From: a virus
Length of the DNA stretch: 64,000 bases
Strand: one strand, 5' to 3'
Virus record (IMG/VR): IMGVR_UViG_3300009508_000001
Span: 37,616-101,615 of that record
Shown here: one piece after another, positions 7,463 through 21,430 of the stretch
Position numbering within the stretch: position 1 is the first letter of the stretch
Layout: every line of letters begins with the position of its first letter
Position numbers and translations under genes: made by a program
Notes under the pieces: model-generated
The model's database searches: none
The model's input: only the letters and a program-made list of their open reading frames with translations
What the model was told of the DNA's origin: nothing

Positions 7463-8290
7463 ATGGCAAAAATAGATTATGAATATAAAAAATTATTACA
7501 ACACATCTTAGATGAAGGATATAGATATGAAGATCCTAATCGTAAAGGTGTATATAGGCGTCAAATATCAGATTATAAGATTGTACACGATTTTAGAGAT
7601 GGTTTTCCTGCGCTAACTACTAAAAAGTTAGCGTGGAAATCTGTTGTAGGAGAGTTATTGTGGATTTTAAGAGGAGATACTAATATTAAATATCTTGTAG
7701 ATAATGATATTAATATTTGGAATAAAGATACTTATAATTATTATTTAAGTAAAGGTGAAGGTAAATTTGGAATTAAACCTTATGATGAGTTTATTAAAAA
7801 AATAGGTGTAGAAAGAAATATTTCAAATAATAAAAACTATAATTTTGGAGATATAGGTAGAGGTTATGGTGCTCAATTGAGAAATTGGAGAGGTTCTAGT
7901 GAAGTAGATAATGGTCCAGAGTTTAATACTATAGACCAATTTGCAGAACTTATAAACATTCTTAAAACTAATCCAATGGCTACTAAGAAGACAGTAACAT
8001 TCTGGAATCCAGCAGAGAAAGATCAATGTGCTTTAACACCTTGTCATTGGAGTTTTGAAGTATTGGTTGAACCTATTGAATTTGATTATGTTGCTGATTA
8101 TACAGGACTTAAAGAAAATGATTGGTTTGAAAAAGCTTGTAAAAATTTAGAACATAAAGATGTTATAAAATGTGAAAATAAATATTATCAAATATTTTTT
8201 GGACCAGAACATGATTCTTGTGAAGAGTTTATACCTAAATATCAATTCACTTTAAAATGGCATCAACATAGTGTGGATACATTCCTCGGT
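7463..8290 (+). CDS. thyA: Thymidylate synthase ThyA, exon 1
   Basis: ThyA converts dUMP to dTMP using methylene-tetrahydrofolate. Exon 1 encodes 276 residues: the dUMP/folate N-terminal signature (YRRQISDYKIVHDFRDGFP, LTTKKLAWKSVVGELLW), FGDIGRGYGAQLRNW, the catalytic cysteine C194 in LTPCHW, and a ~65-residue insertion before WHQHSVDTFLG. The frame stops two codons after GGT. The conserved continuation LPFNIASYGLL resumes at 9549, so the gene is split by a group I intron. The joined product is 389 aa. Confidence 0.95.
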
Positions 8291-8410
8291 AGGTAGTAAG
8301 CTGAGGTTAAAACTAGTTAAACGGGGAAACTCCTAATATTAAGTTAAGGACAATCCCGTGCTAAATTTTTTTATATAATAAATATTATTATAAAATAATG
8401 AGTAAATAAC

Positions 8411-8456: not shown

Positions 8457-9140
8457 ATGAAAGGTTATATTTACAAAATTACAAATTTAAATACCAATAA
8501 ATATTATATTGGTAGTACAGTTGATTTTAAAACAAGAAAAAAACAACATTTATGGCATTTAAGAGCTAATAAACATGTAAATAAACATTTACAGAGTTCT
8601 TATAATAAACATGGTGAAGAATTTTTTGAATTTAAAATAATAGCTGAAGTTAATAATATTAAAGAAACTGAACAAGAGTTTCTAGATAATTTAGATTTTA
8701 CAAAATCTTATAATATATCACCAAATTCTGTTGGTGGAGATATAATAAAAACATTTCCATTAAAAAGACAAAAAGAAGTTTATAAAAAAATATCAGAAAG
8801 TAGAAAAGGTAGTTTACCTGGAAATGCTATTTCTGTTAATATAAATGGTGAAATATTTAATTCTTTTAATAAAGCCTCAATTGCTTTAAATTTACCAGTT
8901 ACAACTATTAGATATAGATGTAAATCATTAAATAGTAAATTTAGAAATTGGAACATTATAGGAGAAGAAAAAGATGAAAATAAACTGTATAAAGAAGGTA
9001 TTAATCAAGGTCATATAATTATATGTGAACAAAAAGAATTTCCTTCTTATGCAGAAGCAGCAAGATATTATAATATGTCTATAACTGCTATTCAAAATAG
9101 AGTAAAATCCAAAAATTATCCACAATTTTATAAAAAATAA
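8457..9140 (+). CDS. GIY-YIG homing endonuclease with NUMOD-type repeats (227 aa)
   Basis: The catalytic domain spans residues 1-90: GYIYKITN, then KYYIGSTVDFKTRKKQH with the catalytic Arg, and a NKHG segment followed by the E of the ETEQEFL helix. The C-terminal half holds NUMOD3-like and two NUMOD1/IENR1-like DNA-binding repeats (INGEIFNSFNKASIALNL, then KEFPSYAEAARYYNM). This is the I-TevI architecture. The protein should cleave intron-less thyA alleles and spread the intron. It sits in the P6 extension and starts 15 nt after its own promoter. Confidence 0.9.
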   Translation: MKGYIYKITNLNTNKYYIGSTVDFKTRKKQHLWHLRANKHVNKHLQSSYNKHGEEFFEFKIIAEVNNIKETEQEFLDNLDFTKSYNISPNSVGGDIIKTFPLKRQKEVYKKISESRKGSLPGNAISVNINGEIFNSFNKASIALNLPVTTIRYRCKSLNSKFRNWNIIGEEKDENKLYKEGINQGHIIICEQKEFPSYAEAARYYNMSITAIQNRVKSKNYPQFYKK

Positions 9141-9548: not shown

Positions 9549-9890
9549 TTACCCTTTAACATTGCTTCTTATGGACTTTTAGCACAGATTATAGGTAAGA
9601 TGACTAATATGATACCAAAAGGTATTATAGGTGATTTAAGCAACGTACATATTTATGAACCTCATTTAGATGCTGTTAAAGAGCAGTTAAGTAGGGATGT
9701 TGATAAGTATGGTGATAGTGAATTAATGATTAGTACATTAACTCAAACTAATTTAAATAATGATAATTTTAAAAATAATGATATTATGAGGCATATTGAT
9801 AATGGTAATATTGATATTAAAGATTTTACATTATTTGATTATAAATCATACCCAAGAATACCAGCAGAAATGTTGGCTTATAGTAATTAA
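9549..9890 (+). CDS. thyA: Thymidylate synthase ThyA, exon 2
   Basis: Exon 2 starts TTACCCTTTAAC (LPFNIASYGLLAQIIGKM), the conserved dUMP-binding segment that follows FLG in ThyA. It includes a VHIYEPHLDAVKEQL helix pair, where HIY is the usual substrate-contact motif. It ends FDYKSYPRIPAEML, close to the family's C-terminus, and adds 113 residues. An upstream in-frame ATG at 9546 is really the last three intron bases, not a start codon. Confidence 0.93.
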   Translation, partial: LPFNIASYGLLAQIIGKMTNMIPKGIIGDLSNVHIYEPHLDAVKEQLSRDVDKYGDSELMISTLTQTNLNNDNFKNNDIMRHIDNGNIDIKDFTLFDYKSYPRIPAEMLAYSN

Positions 9891-10573: not shown

Positions 10574-11032
10574 ATGGGACAATTAGTATTTATTGTTGGG
10601 AAATCAGGAATGGGTAAATCAACTAGTGCAAGAAATTTAGATCCAGATAAAACTGTGATTATAAATTCTGATCAAAAAGATTTACCATTTCCTAAATTTC
10701 GTAGCAAATACAGTGAAGAAAAAGGAAATTACTTACAAACAAGTAATGTAGATGAAGTAATAACAAAATTAAAAGAAGTACAAAGTAATGATAATGTAAA
10801 TACAGTTATAATTGATACTTGGAGTAGGATGATGACTGATGGAGTAATGGCGCCTAGCTTTGTAAAAAATAAAGGTTTTGAAAAATGGGGTAATTTCTCA
10901 TTTAGTCATTATAAACTTATTAATATTATCAACGAAAAGTTGAGAGATGATTTAGTAGTATATTTATTTTGTCATCCTGAAATAGTATATGATGAATCAG
11001 GCTTTCCTAGAATGGAAATAGCTGTGCAGGGT
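10574..11032 (+). CDS. Sak4-like RecA-fold ATPase, exon 1
   Basis: The spliced product is 223 aa. Exon 1 (153 aa) shows Walker A GKSGMGKS (residues 9-16), a NSDQKD segment and Walker B TVIIDTW (D81). YLFCHPEIV follows, similar to the sensor strand of single-domain RecA-like proteins. This fits the Sak4-type ATP-binding proteins that many phages place next to an SSB gene and use in single-strand annealing or recombination. The frame ends one codon after CAGGGT, where an intron interrupts it. Confidence 0.85.
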
Positions 11033-11246
11033 TGATTAATGTTTGCCCTGATTAAACCTATTTAATTGCTGGAACGTCTTTAAGCTTATATAACTACAAC
11101 GTAATCATAAATGATAAGCGTGAATGTTTAAAAATATATAAGATTAGATAATCAGCAGCGAAGCTCTTTTAAAATAGAGAACGTTCACAGACTATCCCGT
11201 GAGGGAGTAAGTATAAATTATTAGTATAAAATTTATATTGAAAAAG

Positions 11247-11277
11247 TAGGTATTCACGAATTTTTGTTGTATCTTTG
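11247..11277 (+). promoter_or_regulatory. Bacteroidota-type promoter inside the Sak4 intron
   Basis: TATCTTTG (11270-11277) is a perfect -7 element. Twenty bases upstream is TAG rather than TTG, so the -33 element is weak. The ATG of the endonuclease gene follows only 4 nt after the -7 box, so the transcript would be leaderless or nearly so. Confidence 0.5.
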
Positions 11278-11281
11278 TATT

Positions 11282-12055
11282 ATGAAGAAACAACTATTAA
11301 AATTTGTAAATATAGAAGAACTTAGTTCTACTGGTATTTACAACATAACTTTTAAAGGAACTAATAAAATATATATTGGTTCTACTATAGCAGGTTTAAA
11401 GTCTAATAAAATTTCTGATAAAGGATTTTATTGTAGATGGTCTAAACATTTAAGATTATTAAAACAAAATATTCATCCTAATAATTATTTGCAAAATGCA
11501 TTTAATAAATATGGTAATGATAATATTGAATTTAATATAATTAAAATATGTATAGATAAAAATAAAATAATAGAATTAGAACAATATTATTTAGATAAAT
11601 TAAAACCTTATAATAGAAAAAATGGATATAATATTCAAAAAAAAGCAGATAGAGTTGAACTATATAATTTAAATTTAAATAAAAAGAAAATAGTTCAGTA
11701 TGATATTAATGGTAACTTTGAAAAAATACATAATAGTTCTTTAGAAGCCTCTAAAGAATTAAATGTAACTTCAAGTTCTATATATCATTGTTTGCAATCT
11801 GATAATAGAATATGTAAAAATAAACAATTTGTATATTTTACTAAAAATTATCCTAAAAAAATAAAACCTTATATTAAAAAAGTTAAAACTAGAAAAAAAG
11901 TATATCAATATACTAAAGATAAAAAATACATTACTAATTATAATTCTGTTAAAAAAGCAGCAGAATCTGTAAATGGAAGTAGTGGTACATTATCTTATTA
12001 TATACGTAAAACTGGTTTTTTCAAAGGTTATTATTGGAGTTATGAACGTGAATAA
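11282..12055 (+). CDS. GIY-YIG homing endonuclease with two NUMOD1-like repeats (257 aa)
   Basis: The catalytic domain includes STGIYNITF, then NKIYIGSTIAG and a FYCRWSKHLRLL segment carrying the conserved Arg. NAFNKYGNDNIEF and a catalytic Glu in IIELEQYYL follow. The C-terminal part has two NUMOD1/IENR1-like repeats (KIVQYDINGNFEKIHNSSLE at ~140, KVYQYTKDKKYITNYNSVKK at ~210). ATG at 11282 is chosen over TTG at 11264 because the earlier codons overlap the promoter. It should cleave intron-less copies of the Sak4-like gene. Its stop lies 5 nt before the P7 3' strand. Confidence 0.88.
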   Translation: MKKQLLKFVNIEELSSTGIYNITFKGTNKIYIGSTIAGLKSNKISDKGFYCRWSKHLRLLKQNIHPNNYLQNAFNKYGNDNIEFNIIKICIDKNKIIELEQYYLDKLKPYNRKNGYNIQKKADRVELYNLNLNKKKIVQYDINGNFEKIHNSSLEASKELNVTSSSIYHCLQSDNRICKNKQFVYFTKNYPKKIKPYIKKVKTRKKVYQYTKDKKYITNYNSVKKAAESVNGSSGTLSYYIRKTGFFKGYYWSYERE

Positions 12056-12097
12056 AGATATAGTCGGTATATATATGAAAATGTATATGTAAAAATG

Positions 12098-12310
12098 AAA
12101 CAAATTAAGAAATTCTTCCCAGAAAGTTTTTCAAGTATAGTACTTTATGCAGAAGCTGTTAAAAGTCCAGGAAATCCTGTTCAATACGTATTTAGAACAG
12201 TTACAGGAGGAGATGACACATGTAAGACACCAATGGGTATGTTTGAAGAAGAAAACATAGACAATGATCTTATAATAGTCAATAACGCTATAACAGAATA
12301 TTATTCTTAA
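12098..12310 (+). CDS. Sak4-like RecA-fold ATPase, exon 2
   Basis: Exon 2 encodes KQIKKFFPESFSSIVLYAEA and onward (70 residues), continuing the RecA fold after ...EIAVQG. It includes the VQYVFRTVTGGDDTCKTPMG strand-turn typical of these small ATPases and ends in a short acidic tail. The in-frame ATG at 12095 is the end of the intron, so it should not be read as a separate gene. A structured leader and the SSB gene follow. Confidence 0.85.
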   Translation, partial: KQIKKFFPESFSSIVLYAEAVKSPGNPVQYVFRTVTGGDDTCKTPMGMFEEENIDNDLIIVNNAITEYYS

Positions 12311-13032: not shown

Positions 13033-14115
13033 ATGAAAATAAACTTGAATAAATTACCTTATGTAAATAAACCAATTATAAGTAGAGAAGTAATATTAAA
13101 AAATATAACTGAATGGGATATATTCAAAAAATATATTAACAATGATATTAAATTAAAAGAACCTTTTTCATCTCCTTTTAGAAAAGATAATACACCTAGT
13201 TTTGCATTATTTAGAAATTCTACTGGAGATATATTATATAATGATTTTGTATTGGGAGGAGGAGATGCTTTTCAATTTGTAAAATATTATTTTGGATATA
13301 ATAGTTGGTTTGATGTATATAGTAGAATAGCTGTAGATTTTTGGCTAGATAATATATATCATTGTAAAAATTCTATTAAAAATGAATATAAAAAGTATAA
13401 GCCTGAAACAGGTGCTAAACCTGTAAAAATAAATGATAAAGTAAAAATAGGTGTTACAGTAAGACCTTGGAAAGATTATGATATAAAATATTGGAATTCT
13501 TTTGGTATAGACCATATTACACTTTTAAAATATAATGTTTTTCCAGTTGACTATATTATATTTAAATCTAATAGTAAAGAAAAAACAGTAAAAGCTGATA
13601 AATATTCTTATGCTTATTATGAATTCAAAGATGGTGAAGCCACTTTTAAAATATATCAACCTTTTAGTAAATATAAATGGTTTAGTGATGTAAATACTTC
13701 TATATGGCAAGGATGGAGAGAATTACCTGTGTCTGATGAAATATTAATTTGGACCAAATCTCTTAAAGATGTAATGTCTATAAATGAAACTTGTAGATTA
13801 GCATCGGTATCTTTACAAAATGAAAAAATAAAACCTAAAATAAATGTAGTTAATGAATTAAAAAGAAGATTTGAAACTATATTTATATTATATGATAATG
13901 ATTTTGATAAAGAGTCTAATTATGGTCAGATATTTGCATCAGAATTATGTGATGAATTTAATATTATAAATATTAAAATACCTGATAAATATAAAACTAA
14001 AGACTTTAGTGATTTAGTAAAAAATTTTGGGAAAGAAAAAGCAAAAAAGATATTAACTGATTTAATTTCAGAAAAATTAAAAAAATTAAAAATTAACGAC
14101 AATTTACCTTATTAA
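13033..14115 (+). CDS. DnaG-type DNA primase (360 aa)
   Basis: This enzyme makes RNA primers for replication. The N-terminal region has the CHC2-like remnant SPFRKDNTPSFALF and a GGGDAFQFVKYYFG segment, but no zinc-binding cysteines in the usual pattern. The Toprim domain follows with LIWTKSLKDVMS (~240) and IFILYDNDFD (~285), the metal-binding DxD strand. In the first motif, TKSLKDV takes the place of the usual EGxxDV, a variant common in small phage primases. The C-terminus is lysine-rich. The next gene begins 2 nt later. Confidence 0.85.
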   Translation: MKINLNKLPYVNKPIISREVILKNITEWDIFKKYINNDIKLKEPFSSPFRKDNTPSFALFRNSTGDILYNDFVLGGGDAFQFVKYYFGYNSWFDVYSRIAVDFWLDNIYHCKNSIKNEYKKYKPETGAKPVKINDKVKIGVTVRPWKDYDIKYWNSFGIDHITLLKYNVFPVDYIIFKSNSKEKTVKADKYSYAYYEFKDGEATFKIYQPFSKYKWFSDVNTSIWQGWRELPVSDEILIWTKSLKDVMSINETCRLASVSLQNEKIKPKINVVNELKRRFETIFILYDNDFDKESNYGQIFASELCDEFNIINIKIPDKYKTKDFSDLVKNFGKEKAKKILTDLISEKLKKLKINDNLPY

Positions 14116-14117
14116 AT

Positions 14118-14513
14118 ATGAATAAAAATATAAAAATAGCAGTTTACGGAACATTAAGAGAAGGTTATGGAAATCACGGAGTATTAGGTAATTCAAAACT
14201 TATTGATTCTGGATGGACTAAAGATAAATATAAATTAACAGCAAGTGGGATACCTTTTGTAAATTCAAAAGAACCTATTAGCAAGATTAAAGTTGAAGTG
14301 TATGATGTTACTCCTGAACAATTACCTATAGTAGATGGTCTTGAAGGTTATAGACCTGGAGATACCTCTAAAACAGGTTACTATAGAGAACCTGTACCTG
14401 TAGAACTTGATGGTGGTGAAGAAATAGAAGCTTCATTATATTTTCACGATGGAGCTAGTAATGCAACTTTAATTGAATCAGGTGATTATACTGATTATAG
14501 AAACAAATATTAA
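14118..14513 (+). CDS. Gamma-glutamylcyclotransferase-like protein (131 aa)
   Basis: This is a GGCT/AIG2-fold protein. YGTLREG (Y10-R14) is the substrate-binding loop and the general acid/base Glu is E76 in GLEGY. Known members release 5-oxoproline from gamma-glutamyl amino acids or gamma-glutamyl amines. The length is typical. It opens a tight series of amide-bond genes (14118-20741), so it may process a gamma-glutamyl conjugate made there (inference). Confidence 0.85.
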   Translation: MNKNIKIAVYGTLREGYGNHGVLGNSKLIDSGWTKDKYKLTASGIPFVNSKEPISKIKVEVYDVTPEQLPIVDGLEGYRPGDTSKTGYYREPVPVELDGGEEIEASLYFHDGASNATLIESGDYTDYRNKY

Positions 14514-14518
14514 AATAA

Positions 14519-14965
14519 ATGAAATTATATGTAAAAATAGAAAAAAAACCTAGATATATAAAAGATTTTATAAAATGGTTTTTTGAAAGTAGAAGATATG
14601 GATGTCAATATACTTATAAAAATTATGAGTGTAATCAACCTCATTGTATTTCTCTTCAAAGATCTATAATTGATTTATATAATGTTTGTAAAACTTATTA
14701 TTCTTCATTAACTAAAAAAAGATTTTTTACTATTCTTAAAAAATATCTTTTAAGTTCTAATGTAACAGGTAGATATTGTGGAGATAGACAAGGTTTTGTT
14801 TTTTATAATTCTGTTATAAGATTGGAATCACACGGTAGAGATATTAAATATCCTTTTTTAATAAAATTAAATTCTGTACCTCATAATAATTTAAATAAAA
14901 TGAAGGTAAAAGGTTTTAGAGAACCAGAATATAATTTAGAAAACTTAACAAAATTATTAAAATGA
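14519..14965 (+). CDS. Hypothetical protein of the amidoligase cluster (148 aa)
   Basis: I do not recognise this protein. It is basic and has scattered cysteines (YGCQYTYKNYECNQPHC, then VCKTYY, GRYCGDRQGF) that could bind a metal. It ends with a SHGRDIKYPFLIKLNSVPHN stretch. Its stop codon overlaps the ATP-grasp start by 4 nt, so it is likely co-translated and may be a substrate or partner of that ligase. Phage ATP-grasp genes are often preceded by short uncharacterised genes of this kind. Confidence 0.6.
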   Translation: MKLYVKIEKKPRYIKDFIKWFFESRRYGCQYTYKNYECNQPHCISLQRSIIDLYNVCKTYYSSLTKKRFFTILKKYLLSSNVTGRYCGDRQGFVFYNSVIRLESHGRDIKYPFLIKLNSVPHNNLNKMKVKGFREPEYNLENLTKLLK

Positions 14966-15864
14966 CTATAATTAAAAAGAAAAATTACACTAAGTTTAGA
15001 CCTATGGTTAGATCTAGACATCCTTCTCATTCAATATTAAGGTTAAAAAATAGAACTCTACCACTTTTACCATTTAAATCTATTATTAGATTAGGATCTA
15101 CTACAGATCAATCTGATACAGTATCTAATGGAGGTGATAGAATTGAACTTAATACTATTGATGCTATTAGAAATAGTAGTAGTAAGTTAAGAATGAAACG
15201 TTGTTTTGTTAAAGGAAAAGTTAAGACAGCTGTAGGTTACCTATGGTCTGAAAAACTTAACTTTATATTAATGGATTCAAATGAAGATTTAATATTATCT
15301 ATTAATGATCTTCAATATCCTATTATTTCTAAATCATTATTTGGTAGTAGAGGTAAAGGTAATACAAAACATAATACTCCTGAAGAATTGCAAGCTTGGA
15401 TGAAAGGTAAGAATTGTAAATCTTATATTTTTGAAAAGTATTATAATTACTCTAGAGAATATAGACTTCATGTAAATAGTGAAGGTTGCTTCTATACTTG
15501 TAGAAAAATGCTTAAAAGAGAAACTGAAGATGAAAAAAAATGGTATAGAAACGATGATAACTGCGTTTGGATTATGGAAAACTCAGAAACTGGGTTGTTT
15601 GATAAACCAGTTAATTGGGACGATGTTGTATTACATAGTGTTAAAGCCCTTAATGCTGTTGGACTCGATTTTGGAGCTGTAGATTTAAGAATTCAATCTT
15701 CTACTGATTCTAAAAATAGAAAAAGAGATTATTCTGAATTTATAGTTGTTGAAATAAACTCTGCACCTAGTTTTGGAGATAATCAAGAAGAATTAACTTT
15801 TGTTACTAAACAGTATATAGAAGAAATTCCTAAAATGTTAAAACTTAAATATGACAGAGCCTAA
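14962..15864 (+). CDS. ATP-grasp ligase (300 aa)
   Basis: ATP-grasp enzymes activate a carboxylate as acyl-phosphate and join it to an amine or thiol. Visible here are an N-terminal domain with a RLGSTT segment, the flexible Gly-rich loop SLFGSRGKGN (~128-137), IFEKYYNYSREYRLHV for nucleotide contact, and GLDFGAVDLRI. VVEINSAPSF with the metal-binding Glu and Asn comes near the C-terminus. It overlaps the next gene by 14 nt. The substrate is unknown; the neighbours suggest an amino acid or peptide. Confidence 0.88.
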   Translation: MTIIKKKNYTKFRPMVRSRHPSHSILRLKNRTLPLLPFKSIIRLGSTTDQSDTVSNGGDRIELNTIDAIRNSSSKLRMKRCFVKGKVKTAVGYLWSEKLNFILMDSNEDLILSINDLQYPIISKSLFGSRGKGNTKHNTPEELQAWMKGKNCKSYIFEKYYNYSREYRLHVNSEGCFYTCRKMLKRETEDEKKWYRNDDNCVWIMENSETGLFDKPVNWDDVVLHSVKALNAVGLDFGAVDLRIQSSTDSKNRKRDYSEFIVVEINSAPSFGDNQEELTFVTKQYIEEIPKMLKLKYDRA

Positions 15865-16531
15865 AAAAAATTTAGTAATACTAACAAATAAAAAATATTT
15901 ATCAATAGATGTTCAAAGATTTTTTCAAGATAAATATAATTGTACATTTTTAGATAGACCTAATAAAAAATATCCTTTGGCTAGAATTGATTTAATATTA
16001 TTTACTGGAGGTAAAGATGTGAATCCTTATATCTATAAAGAAGATAAGATTCATCATATGACTAGAGTTAATAATAGAAGAGATATTACTGAATCAGTAA
16101 TGTTTAATAAATATCCTGTTACAATACCTAAAATGGGTATTTGTAGGGGTGCTCAATTATTAACAGCTCTATCAGGAGGTAAAGTTATACAACATGTAAC
16201 AAATCATCTTTCAAGTCATAATATTATTACATCTGAAGGTAAAACTATTAATGTAATATCTACTCATCATCAAATGATGTATCCTAATAATATAGATTCT
16301 AAACATTACAAATTATTAGGAACTACATTAAAAAAGATATCTACTAGATATGAATCAGGTGAAGGAAAAGATTTCCCAGTGCCTAAAGATTTTAAAGAGC
16401 CAGAAATAGTATATTACAAAAATACTAGATCTTTAGCTATTCAAGGTCATCCTGAAAGAAGTTATTCAAGTAAAGGTTTTAAAGAATATAGTTATGAATT
16501 ATTAAACAAATTATTATTAAATGAGTTATAG
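15851..16531 (+). CDS. Class I glutamine amidotransferase, PuuD-like (226 aa)
   Basis: The catalytic triad is visible: C98 in the nucleophile elbow GICRGAQLL, and H200 and E202 in QGHPERS. FTGGKDVNP near residue 51 and the STHHQMM strand are typical of the peptidase C26 branch, which includes gamma-glutamyl-GABA hydrolase PuuD. It either hydrolyses a gamma-glutamyl amide or supplies ammonia to a ligase partner. It overlaps the ATP-grasp gene upstream and the COOH-NH2 ligase downstream. Confidence 0.88.
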   Translation: MTEPKKNLVILTNKKYLSIDVQRFFQDKYNCTFLDRPNKKYPLARIDLILFTGGKDVNPYIYKEDKIHHMTRVNNRRDITESVMFNKYPVTIPKMGICRGAQLLTALSGGKVIQHVTNHLSSHNIITSEGKTINVISTHHQMMYPNNIDSKHYKLLGTTLKKISTRYESGEGKDFPVPKDFKEPEIVYYKNTRSLAIQGHPERSYSSKGFKEYSYELLNKLLLNEL

Positions 16532-17339
16532 TATAAAAAATGTACTTATAGGATCAGATCCTGAAATTTTTATTAAAGACAAATCAGGTGAATTATCATC
16601 TGCAATTAATCTTTTTAAAGGTACGAAAGATAATCCTATAGATATAGGTAAAGGTTGTTTTGTTCAAGAAGATAATATTCTTGTTGAATTTAATACTCCA
16701 CCTACTAACAATTTAGAAGTGTTCTTAAAATCAGTAGACCATTCTAAAAATTATATAGAAACAATTTTAGCTCCTTTAGATAAGGAATTATATTATTCTA
16801 GTAGTGAAATAGCTACTAAAAAGATATTAGAAGATGAGAAAGCAAATATATTTGGTTGCTCACCATCTTATAATGTTTTAGATGAACAATCAGTTGAACT
16901 CAACATTGAATTATTATCAGAAGAAGATAGAAATTTAAGATCTGCTGGGATGCATATTCATATAGGTTATGAATATCCTGAGGAAGAAACTAACGATAGA
17001 TTAGTACTTTGTTTTGAACTGTTTGTTACTTTACCTTTAATTAATCAAGATTTAGATGTGCATAATCGTAGATTATTGTATGGAAAAATTGGTGATTCTA
17101 GAGATAAAGATTATGGAGTAGAATGTAGATCTCTAGGAGGTTATTTTCTACGTAATGAAGAATCTATTACTGATGTATGGAATAGAACCTTAAAAGCAAT
17201 TGAATTTGCAAATAATAGTAAGAAAACTAATAAAGAATTAAAAGAATTAGTAGAATCATGTTTAAACAGTGACAAAACTGTTAACTTAAAGAACTTAGAT
17301 AAAGTTCTTAATAACTTAAATGATAAACAATTAGCTTAA
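16521..17339 (+). CDS. Phage COOH-NH2 ligase, type 2 (272 aa)
   Basis: The start GSDPEIFIKD, then QEDNILVEFNTPP, SAGMHIHIGYE and VECRSLGGYF are the strand motifs of the COOH-NH2 ligase type-2 family, known from phiEco32-like phages. The fold is related to glutamine synthetase and carries Glu and His metal and ATP ligands. These enzymes are predicted to join a carboxylate to an amine with ATP. Its 11-nt overlap with the GATase gene argues for joint function. Confidence 0.85.
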   Translation: MSYSIKNVLIGSDPEIFIKDKSGELSSAINLFKGTKDNPIDIGKGCFVQEDNILVEFNTPPTNNLEVFLKSVDHSKNYIETILAPLDKELYYSSSEIATKKILEDEKANIFGCSPSYNVLDEQSVELNIELLSEEDRNLRSAGMHIHIGYEYPEEETNDRLVLCFELFVTLPLINQDLDVHNRRLLYGKIGDSRDKDYGVECRSLGGYFLRNEESITDVWNRTLKAIEFANNSKKTNKELKELVESCLNSDKTVNLKNLDKVLNNLNDKQLA

Positions 17340-17349
17340 AATAAATTAA

Positions 17350-19188
17350 ATGAAAACAATCTTAATATTAATATTAATACATTATGTATTATTACTCGTA
17401 AGAAAGAATAAAAATTCATCAGTTTTATCTTGTGGTTTATTTGGATGGGTAGGAAGTAGCTCAGATAAATTTTCTAAAGATAAATTTGATAAATTAGGTA
17501 TGTATAATGTAGAGAGAGGTAAACACTCTTGTGGAGTTGCTGTAAATGGTGAGTTATACAAAGGTATTGGAGTGATATCTGAATATCAAGATTATATAAT
17601 CAAAAATACAACTCCTCATCCAAAAGAATCTACAGTAGTTATAGGTCATACTAGACATGCTACAGTAGGTAAACATACTATTTCTGCTGCTCACCCTTTT
17701 AAATTTGATTATGGTGAAGAAGGTTATTTTATAGGTGCTCATAATGGAACACTTAAAAATTATCATCAAATAGCTAGAGAATATGGAATTGATGCTACTG
17801 GTAAAATTGATAGTCAAATATTATTAGAAATTATATCCAAAGATGATGCTAATATTAAAGTTTTAGAACAGTATTATGGTGCTGCTGCATTATTAATGCA
17901 TAGTTCTGAAAACCCTGATACTATGTATTTATTTAGAGGTAAATCTAAACAAGATACTTTTACTAATACTTATGAAAGGGACGAAAGACCTTTATATTAT
18001 TGGCAAGAGAATGATGGTAGCATGTATATTTCATCTTTAAAAGATTCATTATTAGCAATAATTAATGTTGAAGAGGATAAAAAAAATATATTTGAAGTTG
18101 CTCCTAATAGAATCTATGAGATAAAAGCTGGTAAAATAGTTAAAAAATGTGTTATAGATAGAAGTAATGTTATTGACTATTATGAAACTAAAAAGAAAGA
18201 GTTTGCTAATACTACTAAACCAAAATCTACTACAAATAGTAGAATAGGTTATAATAGAACATTAGATTCAAATTCTAATGATGATATGAATACTAATGAT
18301 CACGCTATAAATAATTTATTTTATGAAAAGAAATATATTAAAAATACGTATCAAGAAATCAACTTTAACAAACTAAGATGGTTTGATTCTGAAAATAAAA
18401 GAGTTAGTGGTATTCACATATTTATAGATCAAATTGGTTATGTTAAAATTGGAGATGATATTAATAAACTTAAAAGTAAATTATCAGATTTTAGTTTTTT
18501 AGATTCTTCTTTAACCCAGCCTGAAAATATCAATTTTGGAAATATCGAAGATGCAGATTTATTTTATTTTCATAATGGAGTTCTTTTAGAAACAGAAGAA
18601 GACTATATGTTTTGTCTTAATCCTTCATTAGCTAGAAAAAAAGAACCTACATTTGAAGATTATTCTGACATGTCTGTTCATCCTATTATTGATTTAGATA
18701 GGATAAAAAAAGAGGATGTTATAACAAGAGCTAAACAAGCTATTACTAAAGATAGTAAAATGTTTAGTGGTCAAATAATAATGGCTGGAAGTTATGTTGT
18801 TTATACTGTCCATAATGGTATATTAACCAAAGCATCCTTAAAAGATGAAATGATAGAATATGACAGTGCTAATTTTAATACTCTTGATATTTTTGAAAAC
18901 GCCTCTATAACTTCTTCTAAACTTGAAGATGAAGAAGAGGATGATGTAGAAGATTCTACTTTTGAAGAAGAAATTAATTCTATGATGGAATTAGGTAGTA
19001 TAGATGAAATAGATACTGTATTTGAAGTAATGTCTAATTTTGACGCAGCTATAGAAAGCGTACAAGAATTAAAAGAGTATAAGTCAAATAGTAAATTAAC
19101 TAATATGATTATAGAGTTTACAGAAACTTTAGAAAATGGCTTAAAACCAATTTCAGAAGCAGTAAATTCTATTAATCAAAATGTGTAA
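17350..19188 (+). CDS. Class II (Ntn) glutamine amidotransferase with long C-terminal extension (612 aa)
   Basis: The Ntn-hydrolase domain includes CGLFGWVG, RGKHSCGVAVNG, GHTRHATVG (Gln-binding Arg) and HNGTLKNYHQ, as in GlmS and PurF. The nucleophile is C28, not residue 2: 27 residues precede it, starting with a hydrophobic stretch (ILILILIHYVLLLV). There is no closer in-frame start, so a propeptide must be removed to expose the cysteine. From ~300 on the protein is unassigned, and it has a very acidic segment near 520-545. It may supply ammonia to the ligases on both sides. Confidence 0.82.
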   Translation: MKTILILILIHYVLLLVRKNKNSSVLSCGLFGWVGSSSDKFSKDKFDKLGMYNVERGKHSCGVAVNGELYKGIGVISEYQDYIIKNTTPHPKESTVVIGHTRHATVGKHTISAAHPFKFDYGEEGYFIGAHNGTLKNYHQIAREYGIDATGKIDSQILLEIISKDDANIKVLEQYYGAAALLMHSSENPDTMYLFRGKSKQDTFTNTYERDERPLYYWQENDGSMYISSLKDSLLAIINVEEDKKNIFEVAPNRIYEIKAGKIVKKCVIDRSNVIDYYETKKKEFANTTKPKSTTNSRIGYNRTLDSNSNDDMNTNDHAINNLFYEKKYIKNTYQEINFNKLRWFDSENKRVSGIHIFIDQIGYVKIGDDINKLKSKLSDFSFLDSSLTQPENINFGNIEDADLFYFHNGVLLETEEDYMFCLNPSLARKKEPTFEDYSDMSVHPIIDLDRIKKEDVITRAKQAITKDSKMFSGQIIMAGSYVVYTVHNGILTKASLKDEMIEYDSANFNTLDIFENASITSSKLEDEEEDDVEDSTFEEEINSMMELGSIDEIDTVFEVMSNFDAAIESVQELKEYKSNSKLTNMIIEFTETLENGLKPISEAVNSINQNV

Positions 19189-19196
19189 TAATAACA

Positions 19197-20741
19197 ATGG
19201 ATAAAAACAGAATTATTAAAACTTTTACAGGTAAAAAAGCAAAAAGATCAGACTGTAAAAGAATAAGAGGTCAATATTATTTAGTTGGTGATGTTTCAAT
19301 AAAAGATAGTGGTGAATGCTATAAAATTGAAGATCAATATCATAGATTTAATAATGGTCTTATAGAATATGATCATAATGTAAAAAAATATGTTTTAATT
19401 CATAAAAATCATTTAAAATCAGGTATTGTAGATATTAATAATGAAGAACCTATTATAGGTTTTTATACACCTAATTTAGTTGAAAATGTTGTTCTACGTG
19501 ATGATCCTAATAAAGTATCTAAAGATTTACATTGTATATCTGAAGAAATAGCTTTAAAATTAGGATATAAAGAACGTTTAGGAGATGGTATTTTTTATAG
19601 TACTAAACATTCATCTATTACAGCAAAGTTTCTTAATGAAATTAGTAATAAAATTATTAATAAATCAAGATTACCTTATGATAGTAGATTTTCTCAAGGG
19701 ATAACTAAAAATATATTTAATTCTCATTTTAAACCAGATTACTCTAATAATCAGTTAAATGTTTTAGGTGATTGGTTAGAAGATAATGGAATTACTTTTG
19801 GTGTAGAATTTGAAACTTCTACAGGTTATGTTGCTGAAAGATTATGTTATAAATATGGTGTTTTAGCTTTAAGAGATGGTAGTATTGACGGTTTAGAATA
19901 TGTTACTATACCTTTATCTGGTAAAAAAGGTTTATATGCTTTAAAAGGTATTTGTGAAGAACTTAAAAAGCGTACTAAATTTGATATAAAATGTGCATTG
20001 CATATTCACGTAGGAGGTCTTAAAAGAGAAGAAAATTCTATATTAGCTTCTTATAATTTAGGATATCTTTTACAAGATGAATTATTTGAAATGCAACCTT
20101 TTTACAAAAGAGGTAATACAGGTTATCATAATAATCCTAGAGAAAAAGATTATTCTAAAAAAATTGCTAAATCTGTTCATGATAATATTAATGAACCTAA
20201 AACTTTAAAAGAAAAGTTTGCTAGATTATTTTATATGGCTTCTGACAGTAGAAGTTATGATAATTATAATAATGATCTTAAAAAAGTTAAAAAGCATCCT
20301 AGTGATCCTAAAGGTACATCTAAATGGAATATTCATTCTAGATATACTTGGTTAAATTTAGTACCTATAATTTTTGGTAATAAGAAAACTTTAGAATTTA
20401 GACAACATTCACCAACGTTTGAATTTGAAAAAGTAGTTAATTTTTTAATATTCTGTTCTACATTTGTTAAATTTGTAAATATTAATTCTGATAAACTAGC
20501 TGATAATACTTCAGATTTGTATAAAGAATTAAAATCTTCAAGTAATAAATTAGAATATGTTATTAAGAAATCATTACCTCTTCTTAAATTTAAGGATATT
20601 ATTGAAAGATATGTATCTTATAATTCTTTAAGAACTAAAATAATGGAAACTCTTAAAGCTAAAAAAGATTATTTAGGTAAAAATGAAGCTAAATTTGATT
20701 CTATGTATGGAGCTTTAACTAAAGATAATTTTTGGAATTAA
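19197..20741 (+). CDS. Amidoligase-family enzyme (514 aa)
   Basis: The central domain has the amidoligase signature order: FGVEFETSTG (~200), ALRDGSIDGLEYVTIPLSG, CALHIHVGG (~265) and KTLEFRQHSPTFEFEK (~395). These Glu and His residues form the GS-like ATP/metal site. The N-terminal ~190 residues are a separate region (GQYYLVGDVSIKDSGECY) of unknown role. With the type-2 ligase and the two GATases it completes an amide-forming set. The stop codon shares one base with the uracil-DNA glycosylase start (TAATG). Confidence 0.85.
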   Translation: MDKNRIIKTFTGKKAKRSDCKRIRGQYYLVGDVSIKDSGECYKIEDQYHRFNNGLIEYDHNVKKYVLIHKNHLKSGIVDINNEEPIIGFYTPNLVENVVLRDDPNKVSKDLHCISEEIALKLGYKERLGDGIFYSTKHSSITAKFLNEISNKIINKSRLPYDSRFSQGITKNIFNSHFKPDYSNNQLNVLGDWLEDNGITFGVEFETSTGYVAERLCYKYGVLALRDGSIDGLEYVTIPLSGKKGLYALKGICEELKKRTKFDIKCALHIHVGGLKREENSILASYNLGYLLQDELFEMQPFYKRGNTGYHNNPREKDYSKKIAKSVHDNINEPKTLKEKFARLFYMASDSRSYDNYNNDLKKVKKHPSDPKGTSKWNIHSRYTWLNLVPIIFGNKKTLEFRQHSPTFEFEKVVNFLIFCSTFVKFVNINSDKLADNTSDLYKELKSSSNKLEYVIKKSLPLLKFKDIIERYVSYNSLRTKIMETLKAKKDYLGKNEAKFDSMYGALTKDNFWN

Positions 20742-21430
20742 TGAATTGGACTAAACACTTAGGTGAATGGTATAAGATCCCTGAAGTAAGGGATCTTGTA
20801 TCTTCTCCTTATATGAAAAAAGTATTACAATATCTACAGAATGAATATGATAAAAAGATAATATACCCTGATAAAAAAGATGTATTTAAAGCTTTTAAAT
20901 TATGTAATCCTAAGAAGATAAAAGTTGTAATATTAGGACAAGATCCTTACTTTGATGGTAATGCTACAGGTTTAGCTTTTGCTAATAAAGACTATATATT
21001 AAAAACAAGTCCTTCATTAACAAAAATTATTGAATCTGTAGAAAGAGAAGTATATAAGGAATTTAATCTTGATTTTGACCCAACATTAGAAGATTGGGCA
21101 GATCAAGGTGTTTTATTACTTAATACAGCTTTAACTGTAACTCGTAATAAACCTACTTCTCATTTTAAAGTATGGGATAGATTTACTAAACAAATTTTAA
21201 AAATTATTAGTGAAAATAATCCAGGTTTAATAGTTATGCTATGGGGTAATAATGCTCAAAAATATGAAACTACTGATGTTTATGATTTAAGTAAACAATG
21301 TTATGTATTAAAAGCAATACATCCAGCAGCTTCAGCTCATAATAAAACAGATTGGAAATGTGATAACTTTGTAAAAGCTAATGATATAATAAGAGAAAAT
21401 AATGGAGAAGAATTTTGTATTAAATGGTAA
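20741..21430 (+). CDS. ung: Uracil-DNA glycosylase, family 1 (229 aa)
   Basis: The enzyme removes uracil from DNA. The water-activating loop is GQDPYF (66-71, with D68 catalytic) and the Leu-loop motif reads HPAASAHN (from H194). LLLNTALTV and VMLWGNNAQ are further family 1 landmarks. ATG at 20741 is preferred over TTG at 20732 because TAATG coupling to the amidoligase is exact. It may keep uracil out of phage DNA alongside thyA and the MazG-like enzymes. Confidence 0.95.
   Translation: MNWTKHLGEWYKIPEVRDLVSSPYMKKVLQYLQNEYDKKIIYPDKKDVFKAFKLCNPKKIKVVILGQDPYFDGNATGLAFANKDYILKTSPSLTKIIESVEREVYKEFNLDFDPTLEDWADQGVLLLNTALTVTRNKPTSHFKVWDRFTKQILKIISENNPGLIVMLWGNNAQKYETTDVYDLSKQCYVLKAIHPAASAHNKTDWKCDNFVKANDIIRENNGEEFCIKW

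Follow-up and report, generated by a model that had tools for sequence, protein, structure and literature searches.

Amidoligase cassettes of the phiEco32/LUZ24 type are the closest described relatives of the locus reported here and are carried by LUZ24, PaP3, Kuravirus, Zobellviridae and other phages. The phiEco32-like set was predicted in 2009 (Iyer et al., as relayed in PMC10580990), which bears out the statement in our preliminary description of this DNA that related phage sets had been predicted earlier. The type is defined by a COOH-NH2 ligase type 2, an amidoligase_2, a class-II glutamine amidotransferase (GATase) and a RimK-like ATP-grasp enzyme encoded on one strand; its cassettes combine these four core enzymes with a gamma-glutamyl cyclotransferase (GGCT) on the same strand and lie beside replication genes.

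More distant systems offer partial parallels. Butirosin biosynthesis employs gamma-glutamyl protecting-group chemistry by the ATP-grasp enzyme BtrJ and the GGCT BtrG. An ATP-grasp enzyme and a GGCT also occur together in the phage cassette, often as neighbouring genes, but an acyl-carrier protein was not recognised there and the likeness is one of logic only. Putrescine utilisation relies on the PuuA/PuuD pair, to which a GS-fold ligase and a C26 hydrolase with a conserved catalytic triad could correspond in the phage cassette; however, the cassette showed no recognisable PuuB- or PuuC-type gene, and structurally the phage ligase comes nearest to YbdK and not to a glutamine synthetase. In the CmoX/CmoY 5-carboxymethylcytosine amide system (PMC12783734), the asparagine-synthetase-like CmoY acts after CmoA and CmoX, but no such enzymes were recognised among the recurring neighbours of the phage cassette. 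The LysW-type amino-group carrier pathway uses a small zinc-ribbon carrier with a conserved C-terminal Glu, which the cassette studied here lacks and for which it has no room.

Cassette layout and phage context

The stretch of DNA analysed, termed the window, comprises 64,000 nucleotides (37616-101615 in a virus record of 101,615 bp). We assign it to a crAss-like phage from the nearly full-length matches to head/packaging PHROGs of a major head protein, portal and large terminase encoded elsewhere in the record, from its very large ORFs and from its close similarity to Cellulophaga phage phi14:2 (Crassvirales, Steigviridae; Akihdevirus balticus), which is the sister of the window phage. A search of annotated phages revealed no near-identical DNA. 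As the preliminary description stated, seven ORFs occupy 14118-20741, all on the plus strand and head to tail with overlaps or gaps of about 10 nt at most. They are flanked by a DNA primase upstream and a uracil-DNA glycosylase downstream, as listed here with the supporting match of each.

13033-14115, plus strand: DNA primase, context outside the pathway (PHROG 12622, 1e-72)
14118-14513, plus strand: GGCT, gamma-glutamyl cyclotransferase (PF06094, 2.4e-18)
14519-14965, plus strand: 148-aa protein, W2 family of crAss-like phages, accessory (61 relatives sharing a motif)
14962-15864, plus strand: ATP-grasp ligase, RimK/alpha-L-glutamate-ligase-like (PHROG 2599, 3e-29)
15851-16531, plus strand: class-I GATase/peptidase C26, PuuD-like (PF07722, 2.6e-18)
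16521-17339, plus strand: COOH-NH2 ligase type 2, phiEco32-like, GS/GCS-type fold (PHROG 3815, 1.8e-59)
17350-17430, plus strand: hydrophobic leader of the class-II GATase, 27 aa, MKTILILILIHYVLLLVRKNKNSSVLS, ending directly before the catalytic Cys
17350-19188, plus strand: class-II (Ntn) glutamine amidotransferase with C-terminal region (PF13522, 1.7e-11)
19197-20741, plus strand: amidoligase with N-terminal extension of ~180 aa (PF12224, 1.7e-09; PHROG 2443, 1.5e-66)
20732-21430, plus strand: uracil-DNA glycosylase, context (PF03167, 8e-19)

No structured RNA was found within the cassette region, and promoter-like sites there were similar in number to those in shuffled sequences. The window has every component of the phiEco32/LUZ24-type definition on one strand, and its cassette is a crAss-like version of this known kind. 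Compared with that type, the crAss-like version lacks a protein of ~200 aa that we call X190, has an amidoligase ~160 aa longer (median 518 versus 356 aa), usually includes one or two class-I GATases and has a hydrophobic leader on the class-II GATase of 31 loci. Between its primase and uracil-DNA glycosylase genes, phage phi14:2 encodes GGCT, ATP-grasp, ligase, a leader-bearing class-II GATase and amidoligase, ordered as in the window, with protein identities to the window of 47-53% for ATP-grasp, ligase and amidoligase; it has neither a class-I GATase nor the 148-aa ORF at the cassette site.

Several other features of the record were observed. A GroEL chaperonin of 478 aa is encoded in its remaining part (L181, 418-1854, minus strand; PHROG 5725, 4e-121). 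Thymidylate synthase is encoded in two pieces (window 7463-8296 and 9549-9884), with the break between phi14:2-equivalent residues 252 and 253; the gap of ~1.26 kb contains a GIY-YIG ORF (8457-9140) and is probably an intron, with no Rfam match. A Sak4-like annealing protein is similarly divided (10574-11035 and 12062-12310) near residue 154 by a gap of ~1 kb that contains a second GIY-YIG ORF (11264-12055), again with no Rfam intron match.

Conservation across phages

Iterative profiles were applied to a first set of 23 loci. The COOH-NH2 ligase, class-II GATase and amidoligase were present in 23/23 and the ATP-grasp enzyme in 22/23; the sole locus without a visible ATP-grasp gene (L020) lies in a record that stops after the GATase. 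Viral contigs were then scanned with ligase and ATP-grasp alignments, which gave at least about 150 further loci, and a non-redundant set of 47 loci with at least 8.5 kb on each side of the ligase was compiled. This wider sample represents the closest 80 matches listed and is therefore biased towards relatives of the window. Among the matches listed, ATP-grasp accompanied the ligase in 41/47 loci, class-I GATase in 37/47 and GGCT in 27/47, and ATP-grasp-anchored loci contained both class-II GATase and amidoligase in 42/42. The scattered, independent occurrence in relatives that would speak against a single system was looked for and not found: the gene-neighbour search, again among the matches listed, placed class-II GATase (47/47) and amidoligase (47/47) with the ligase and linked the core genes on one strand in all 47 non-redundant loci. 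More than 10 gene orders were seen among lineages with strand constant, no cassette family gene lay on the opposite strand in any locus examined, and the core spanned a median of ~6 kb. The recurrence of the set across the first 23 loci and the wider sample argues for more than chance.

The ligase family is nearly restricted to phages: it was detected in 314 of 50,697 phage records and, in bacteria and archaea, in seven metagenome-assembled contigs among 84,980 species genomes, a count on which we rejected a host-derived origin. In the annotated phages examined the cassette adjoins primase, helicase or polymerase. Expression of PaP3 ORF32-48 is maximal at 10-30 min, together with replication genes (PMC4707531), and the PaP3 cassette genes are orf42-48, inside this block. 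Middle-phase timing and location among replication genes argue against a role in the virion. Taken with conserved active sites (below), co-occurrence and a shared strand make it well supported that the cassette is one amide-bond system.

Core and optional members

The invariant core consists of the ligase, amidoligase and class-II GATase, to which ATP-grasp is nearly always joined. GGCT was missing from 5/5 large phages that lack ATP-grasp, contigs of 167-353 kb in which whole-record searches revealed neither gene. Where GGCT is present, it adjoins ATP-grasp in 54/82 GGCT adjacencies, and its presence is associated with that of ATP-grasp (Fisher p 0.02, in a test that ignores relatedness and tallies as lacking ATP-grasp one locus, L084, that does carry it). 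Genome-wide searches of cr108_1, PA11 and Asterion revealed no GGCT; at the cr108_1 locus, the three core genes are joined by ATP-grasp and class-I GATase. LUZ24-, PaP3- and Kuravirus-like loci have no class-I GATase. Duplication was also observed: around the cassette, rhizobial phages L016 and L018 have both the class-II GATase and the GGCT in two copies, and L006 has two class-II GATases.

Of the seven genes grouped together in the preliminary description, the six enzymes recur as a set, and the 148-aa protein proved to be accessory. It had no family match in Pfam or PHROG. Its 61 relatives share the motif C..g.yRSi.Dly.i.KtYf and lie mostly elsewhere in the crAss-like early region, where they are scattered, and the phi14:2 homologue is ~15 kb away, for which reasons core membership was rejected. 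Four loci (L025, L101, L103 and the window) do have the gene between GGCT and ATP-grasp, and in L145 it shares a single reading frame with ATP-grasp.

X190 is encoded between ligase and amidoligase in nearly all non-crAss lineages and was not found in the window or its crAss-like relatives. To our knowledge it is not part of the published definition of the phiEco32/LUZ24-type cassette. Its predicted structure (pLDDT 90.6) showed local likeness to Tudor/SH3-like barrels only, with no E below 0.001, suggesting that X190 is probably a binding or scaffold protein. Two other identities were rejected: profile comparison showed no similarity either to class-I GATases, of which X190 might have been a degenerate form and which its model did not match, or to the N-terminus of the crAss-like amidoligase.

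Other proteins were noted beside the cassette. In many lineages, fast-evolving proteins of about 250-500 aa, often paired, are encoded immediately upstream of the ligase or class-I GATase (L012 5443-7380, L008 5439-7358, L015 47879-49390, L054, L062, L068, L072). Upstream proteins of ~300 aa (LUZ24 gp14/gp15, cr108_1 gp029/gp030, CW02 gp70) were considered as one family, an idea that was dropped when profiles united only some of them. A small CxxC...CxxC zinc-ribbon protein with an acidic tail directly follows ATP-grasp in 15 loci (for example L009 12635-12835, L032, L036, L071, L080, L174) and is possibly a cassette partner or a mere neighbour of primase. One such protein used as a query matched only its own phage. 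In the six whose tails were inspected, the last residue is Y, D, K or N, and a LysW-type carrier was rejected for want of the terminal Glu.

Enzyme families and active sites

Catalytic residues of the cassette enzymes were retained in 85-100% of 88-143 copies; loss from most copies, which would have spoken against a working system, was looked for and not found. GGCT scored 67 bits against PF06094 (cut-off 22.8) and has the YGTL motif (Y10-G11-L13) and a candidate catalytic E76, with Y10 in 100%, G11 in 97% and E76 in 94% of 88 copies. The ATP-grasp enzyme was sub-threshold against Pfam RimK (13.2 versus 21 bits), but its profile matched solved alpha-L-glutamate ligases at 4.5e-10, RimK-type glutamate ligases being nearest. 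The lysines and acidic metal ligands typical of ATP-grasp enzymes are present in the window copy, and K75, E166, R168, K182, D241 and E264 were found in 100% and N266 in 96% of 132 copies. The class-I GATase has the triad C98-H200-E202 and an SxHHQ motif, the triad residues being kept in 92-95% of 128 copies.

The COOH-NH2 ligase scored 24.9 bits against PF14395, just below the cut-off of 25.0, and D13, E15, D51, E56, H145, H147, R183, E201 and R203 were each kept in at least 90% of 137 copies. Its AlphaFold model (pLDDT 93.3) matched YbdK best among PDB entries (E 2.8e-5), followed by glutamine synthetases, gamma-glutamylcysteine ligase and gamma-glutamylmethylamide synthetase, with modest TM-scores of about 0.4-0.5. 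On this model, the ligase has a GS/GCS-like fold and catalytic residues. The amidoligase scored 38.4 bits against PF12224 (cut-off 22) and contains ExE and HxH motifs; E204, E206, D227, E234, H269, H271, E400 and R402 were conserved in 96-97% of 131 copies. In the class-II GATase the glutamine-site residues are present, with C28 in 96% and R102, N132, G133 and D154 in 97% of 143 copies.

Leader and start codons of the class-II GATase

Class-II GATases require a Cys at the N-terminus. A usual start codon (ATG, GTG or TTG) directly precedes the catalytic Cys codon in 92/141 copies; in the window this codon is TCT, which is not a start, and Cys28 sits behind the 27-aa leader. Leaders of 23-43 aa precede the Cys in 31 crAss-like copies including that of the window, and consist of a hydrophobic stretch, a segment of mostly net positive charge and then a junction with the consensus (V/I/T)-L-(S/N/G) directly before the catalytic Cys (Leu at -2 in 24/31; position -1 occupied by Ser, Asn, Gly or Ala in 25/31). 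Just 6% of the other long ORFs of the same loci begin with a comparably hydrophobic stretch. Loci with the leader include L007, L025, L101, L103, L121, L124 and L127, which have close relatives without it. In a quick tree, the leader was confined to one deep clade and was patchy within it, having changed at least 10 times on branches with good support. These features suggest that the leader may produce a membrane-bound or self-cleaving precursor. In six further loci (five automatic calls, L010, L024, L100, L168 and L170, together with L037) ATT lies directly before the Cys codon and is plausibly a rare non-canonical start of the class-II GATase.

Discussion

We propose, with about an even chance of being right, that the cassette encodes a phage-dedicated amide-bond pathway, which is produced during the middle (replication) phase and both adds and removes gamma-glutamyl groups. 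From family chemistry, the class-II GATase would split glutamine to give ammonia or a glutamyl group, and both GS/GCS-type ligases, together with the RimK-like ATP-grasp enzyme, would convert carboxylates to acyl phosphates for coupling to amines, with the ammonia from the GATase probably used by one of these enzymes. Gamma-glutamyl groups may be removed by GGCT as 5-oxoproline and by the PuuD-like class-I GATase through hydrolysis, so that gamma-glutamate might act as a temporary cap or carrier, by analogy with butirosin and putrescine metabolism. We would guess that the pathway ends in a small amide or peptide-like compound, or else in a precursor of the envelope, that acts on the host rather than forming part of the virion.

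The preliminary description had suggested one system that could build and recycle gamma-glutamyl conjugates. Co-occurrence, co-direction and active sites uphold the single system, and a gamma-glutamyl cycle is plausible given the adjacency of GGCT and ATP-grasp, their joint absence from the five large phages and a modelled ligase fold near YbdK, glutamine synthetase and gamma-glutamylcysteine ligase. Against a firmer reading, GGCT and class-I GATase are optional, and the absence of GGCT from cr108_1, PA11, Asterion and the five large contigs indicates that a gamma-glutamyl cap would not be universal. Peptide tagging, also raised in the preliminary description, would likewise be plausible.

Modification of the cell envelope, with the enzymes amidating or decorating either peptidoglycan precursors or some other envelope component and so, for instance, excluding superinfecting phages, is a possible though doubtful alternative. 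For phiEco32, cell-wall modification that prevents superinfection has been predicted in print (Iyer et al. 2009, as conveyed by PMC10580990), and MurT-GatD provides a precedent for class-I and class-II GATases amidating cell-wall precursors (PMC3267633). The positive charge after the hydrophobic stretch of the membrane-type leader in the 31 crAss-like class-II GATases would place the enzyme at the inner membrane face, yet the leader is patchy and missing outside one clade, with its 10 or more changes on the tree, and cleavage that freed Cys28 would leave the enzyme unanchored. Nor did the recurring neighbours include a recognisable gene for a Mur-ligase-like or lipid-II-binding partner. The location and middle-phase timing of the cassette with replication genes would also suit ligases that add amino-acid amides to bases or nucleotides during replication as a counter-defence. 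Such chemistry has a precedent in the phage amide ligase CmoY, which forms 5cxmC-glycine in DNA (PMC12783734), and the cassette-bearing Gordonclarkvirinae are restriction-resistant without known cause (PMC11990801), although deoxyuracil is the simplest cause of the resistance according to the BASEL authors. DNA of the LUZ24-like phage tf, from a cassette-bearing lineage, is cut by RsaI, HpaI, EcoRV, SmaI and HaeIII (PMC3517423), and that of the LUZ24-like phage Delta by BamHI (PMC8540360); a base-handle enzyme (methyl-, carboxymethyl- or hydroxymethyl-transferase, or kinase) was not recognised among the recurring neighbours. Given this normal cutting and the lack of a recognised handle enzyme, we no longer take DNA hypermodification as the leading model and consider it quite unlikely.

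We regard as very unlikely an auxiliary role in nitrogen or glutathione metabolism, in which the genes would aid host nitrogen assimilation into amino acids during infection. This reading was proposed for phage ZRK32, whose contig (L017) carries the same cassette and a preparation of which affected Pseudomonas growth with ammonium, but in the relevant passages the effect is that of the whole phage preparation and single genes are not assayed (PMC10945688). Moreover, the ligase family is nearly phage-confined, unlike host-derived metabolic genes, and two GS-like ligases, an ATP-grasp enzyme and two deglutamylating enzymes exceed the needs of assimilation. A chance neighbourhood of independently useful genes would accommodate the loss of GGCT, class-I GATase or ATP-grasp in some lineages; it is almost certainly wrong in view of class-II GATase and amidoligase beside the ligase in 47/47 loci, on one strand and across rearranged orders. 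An extension of the amide-bond pathway that we consider rather unlikely is that the product is an amide or gamma-glutamyl conjugate not described before that shields the phage from host defence at the level of DNA, nucleotides or envelope, which would explain the restriction resistance of Gordonclarkvirinae, with the crAss-like glutaminase being a membrane-anchored precursor cut between (V/I/T)-L-(S/N/G) and Cys.

To the known cassette our analysis adds a class-II GATase leader that was repeatedly gained or lost, probable ATT starts and the partner X190 with its Tudor/SH3-like-barrel likeness, which is missing from the window. Despite rearrangement, the cassette has been retained by very different phages whose host bacteria live in the gut, the sea and soil; among its carriers are crAss-like phages, which are related to the viruses most abundant in the human gut. 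The first prediction of the cassette dates back more than 15 years, and culturable carriers such as LUZ24, PaP3, Kuraviruses and phi14:2 make the question of its product testable. Its identification would account for a replication-phase pathway of wide occurrence, and perhaps for a chemistry of counter-defence.
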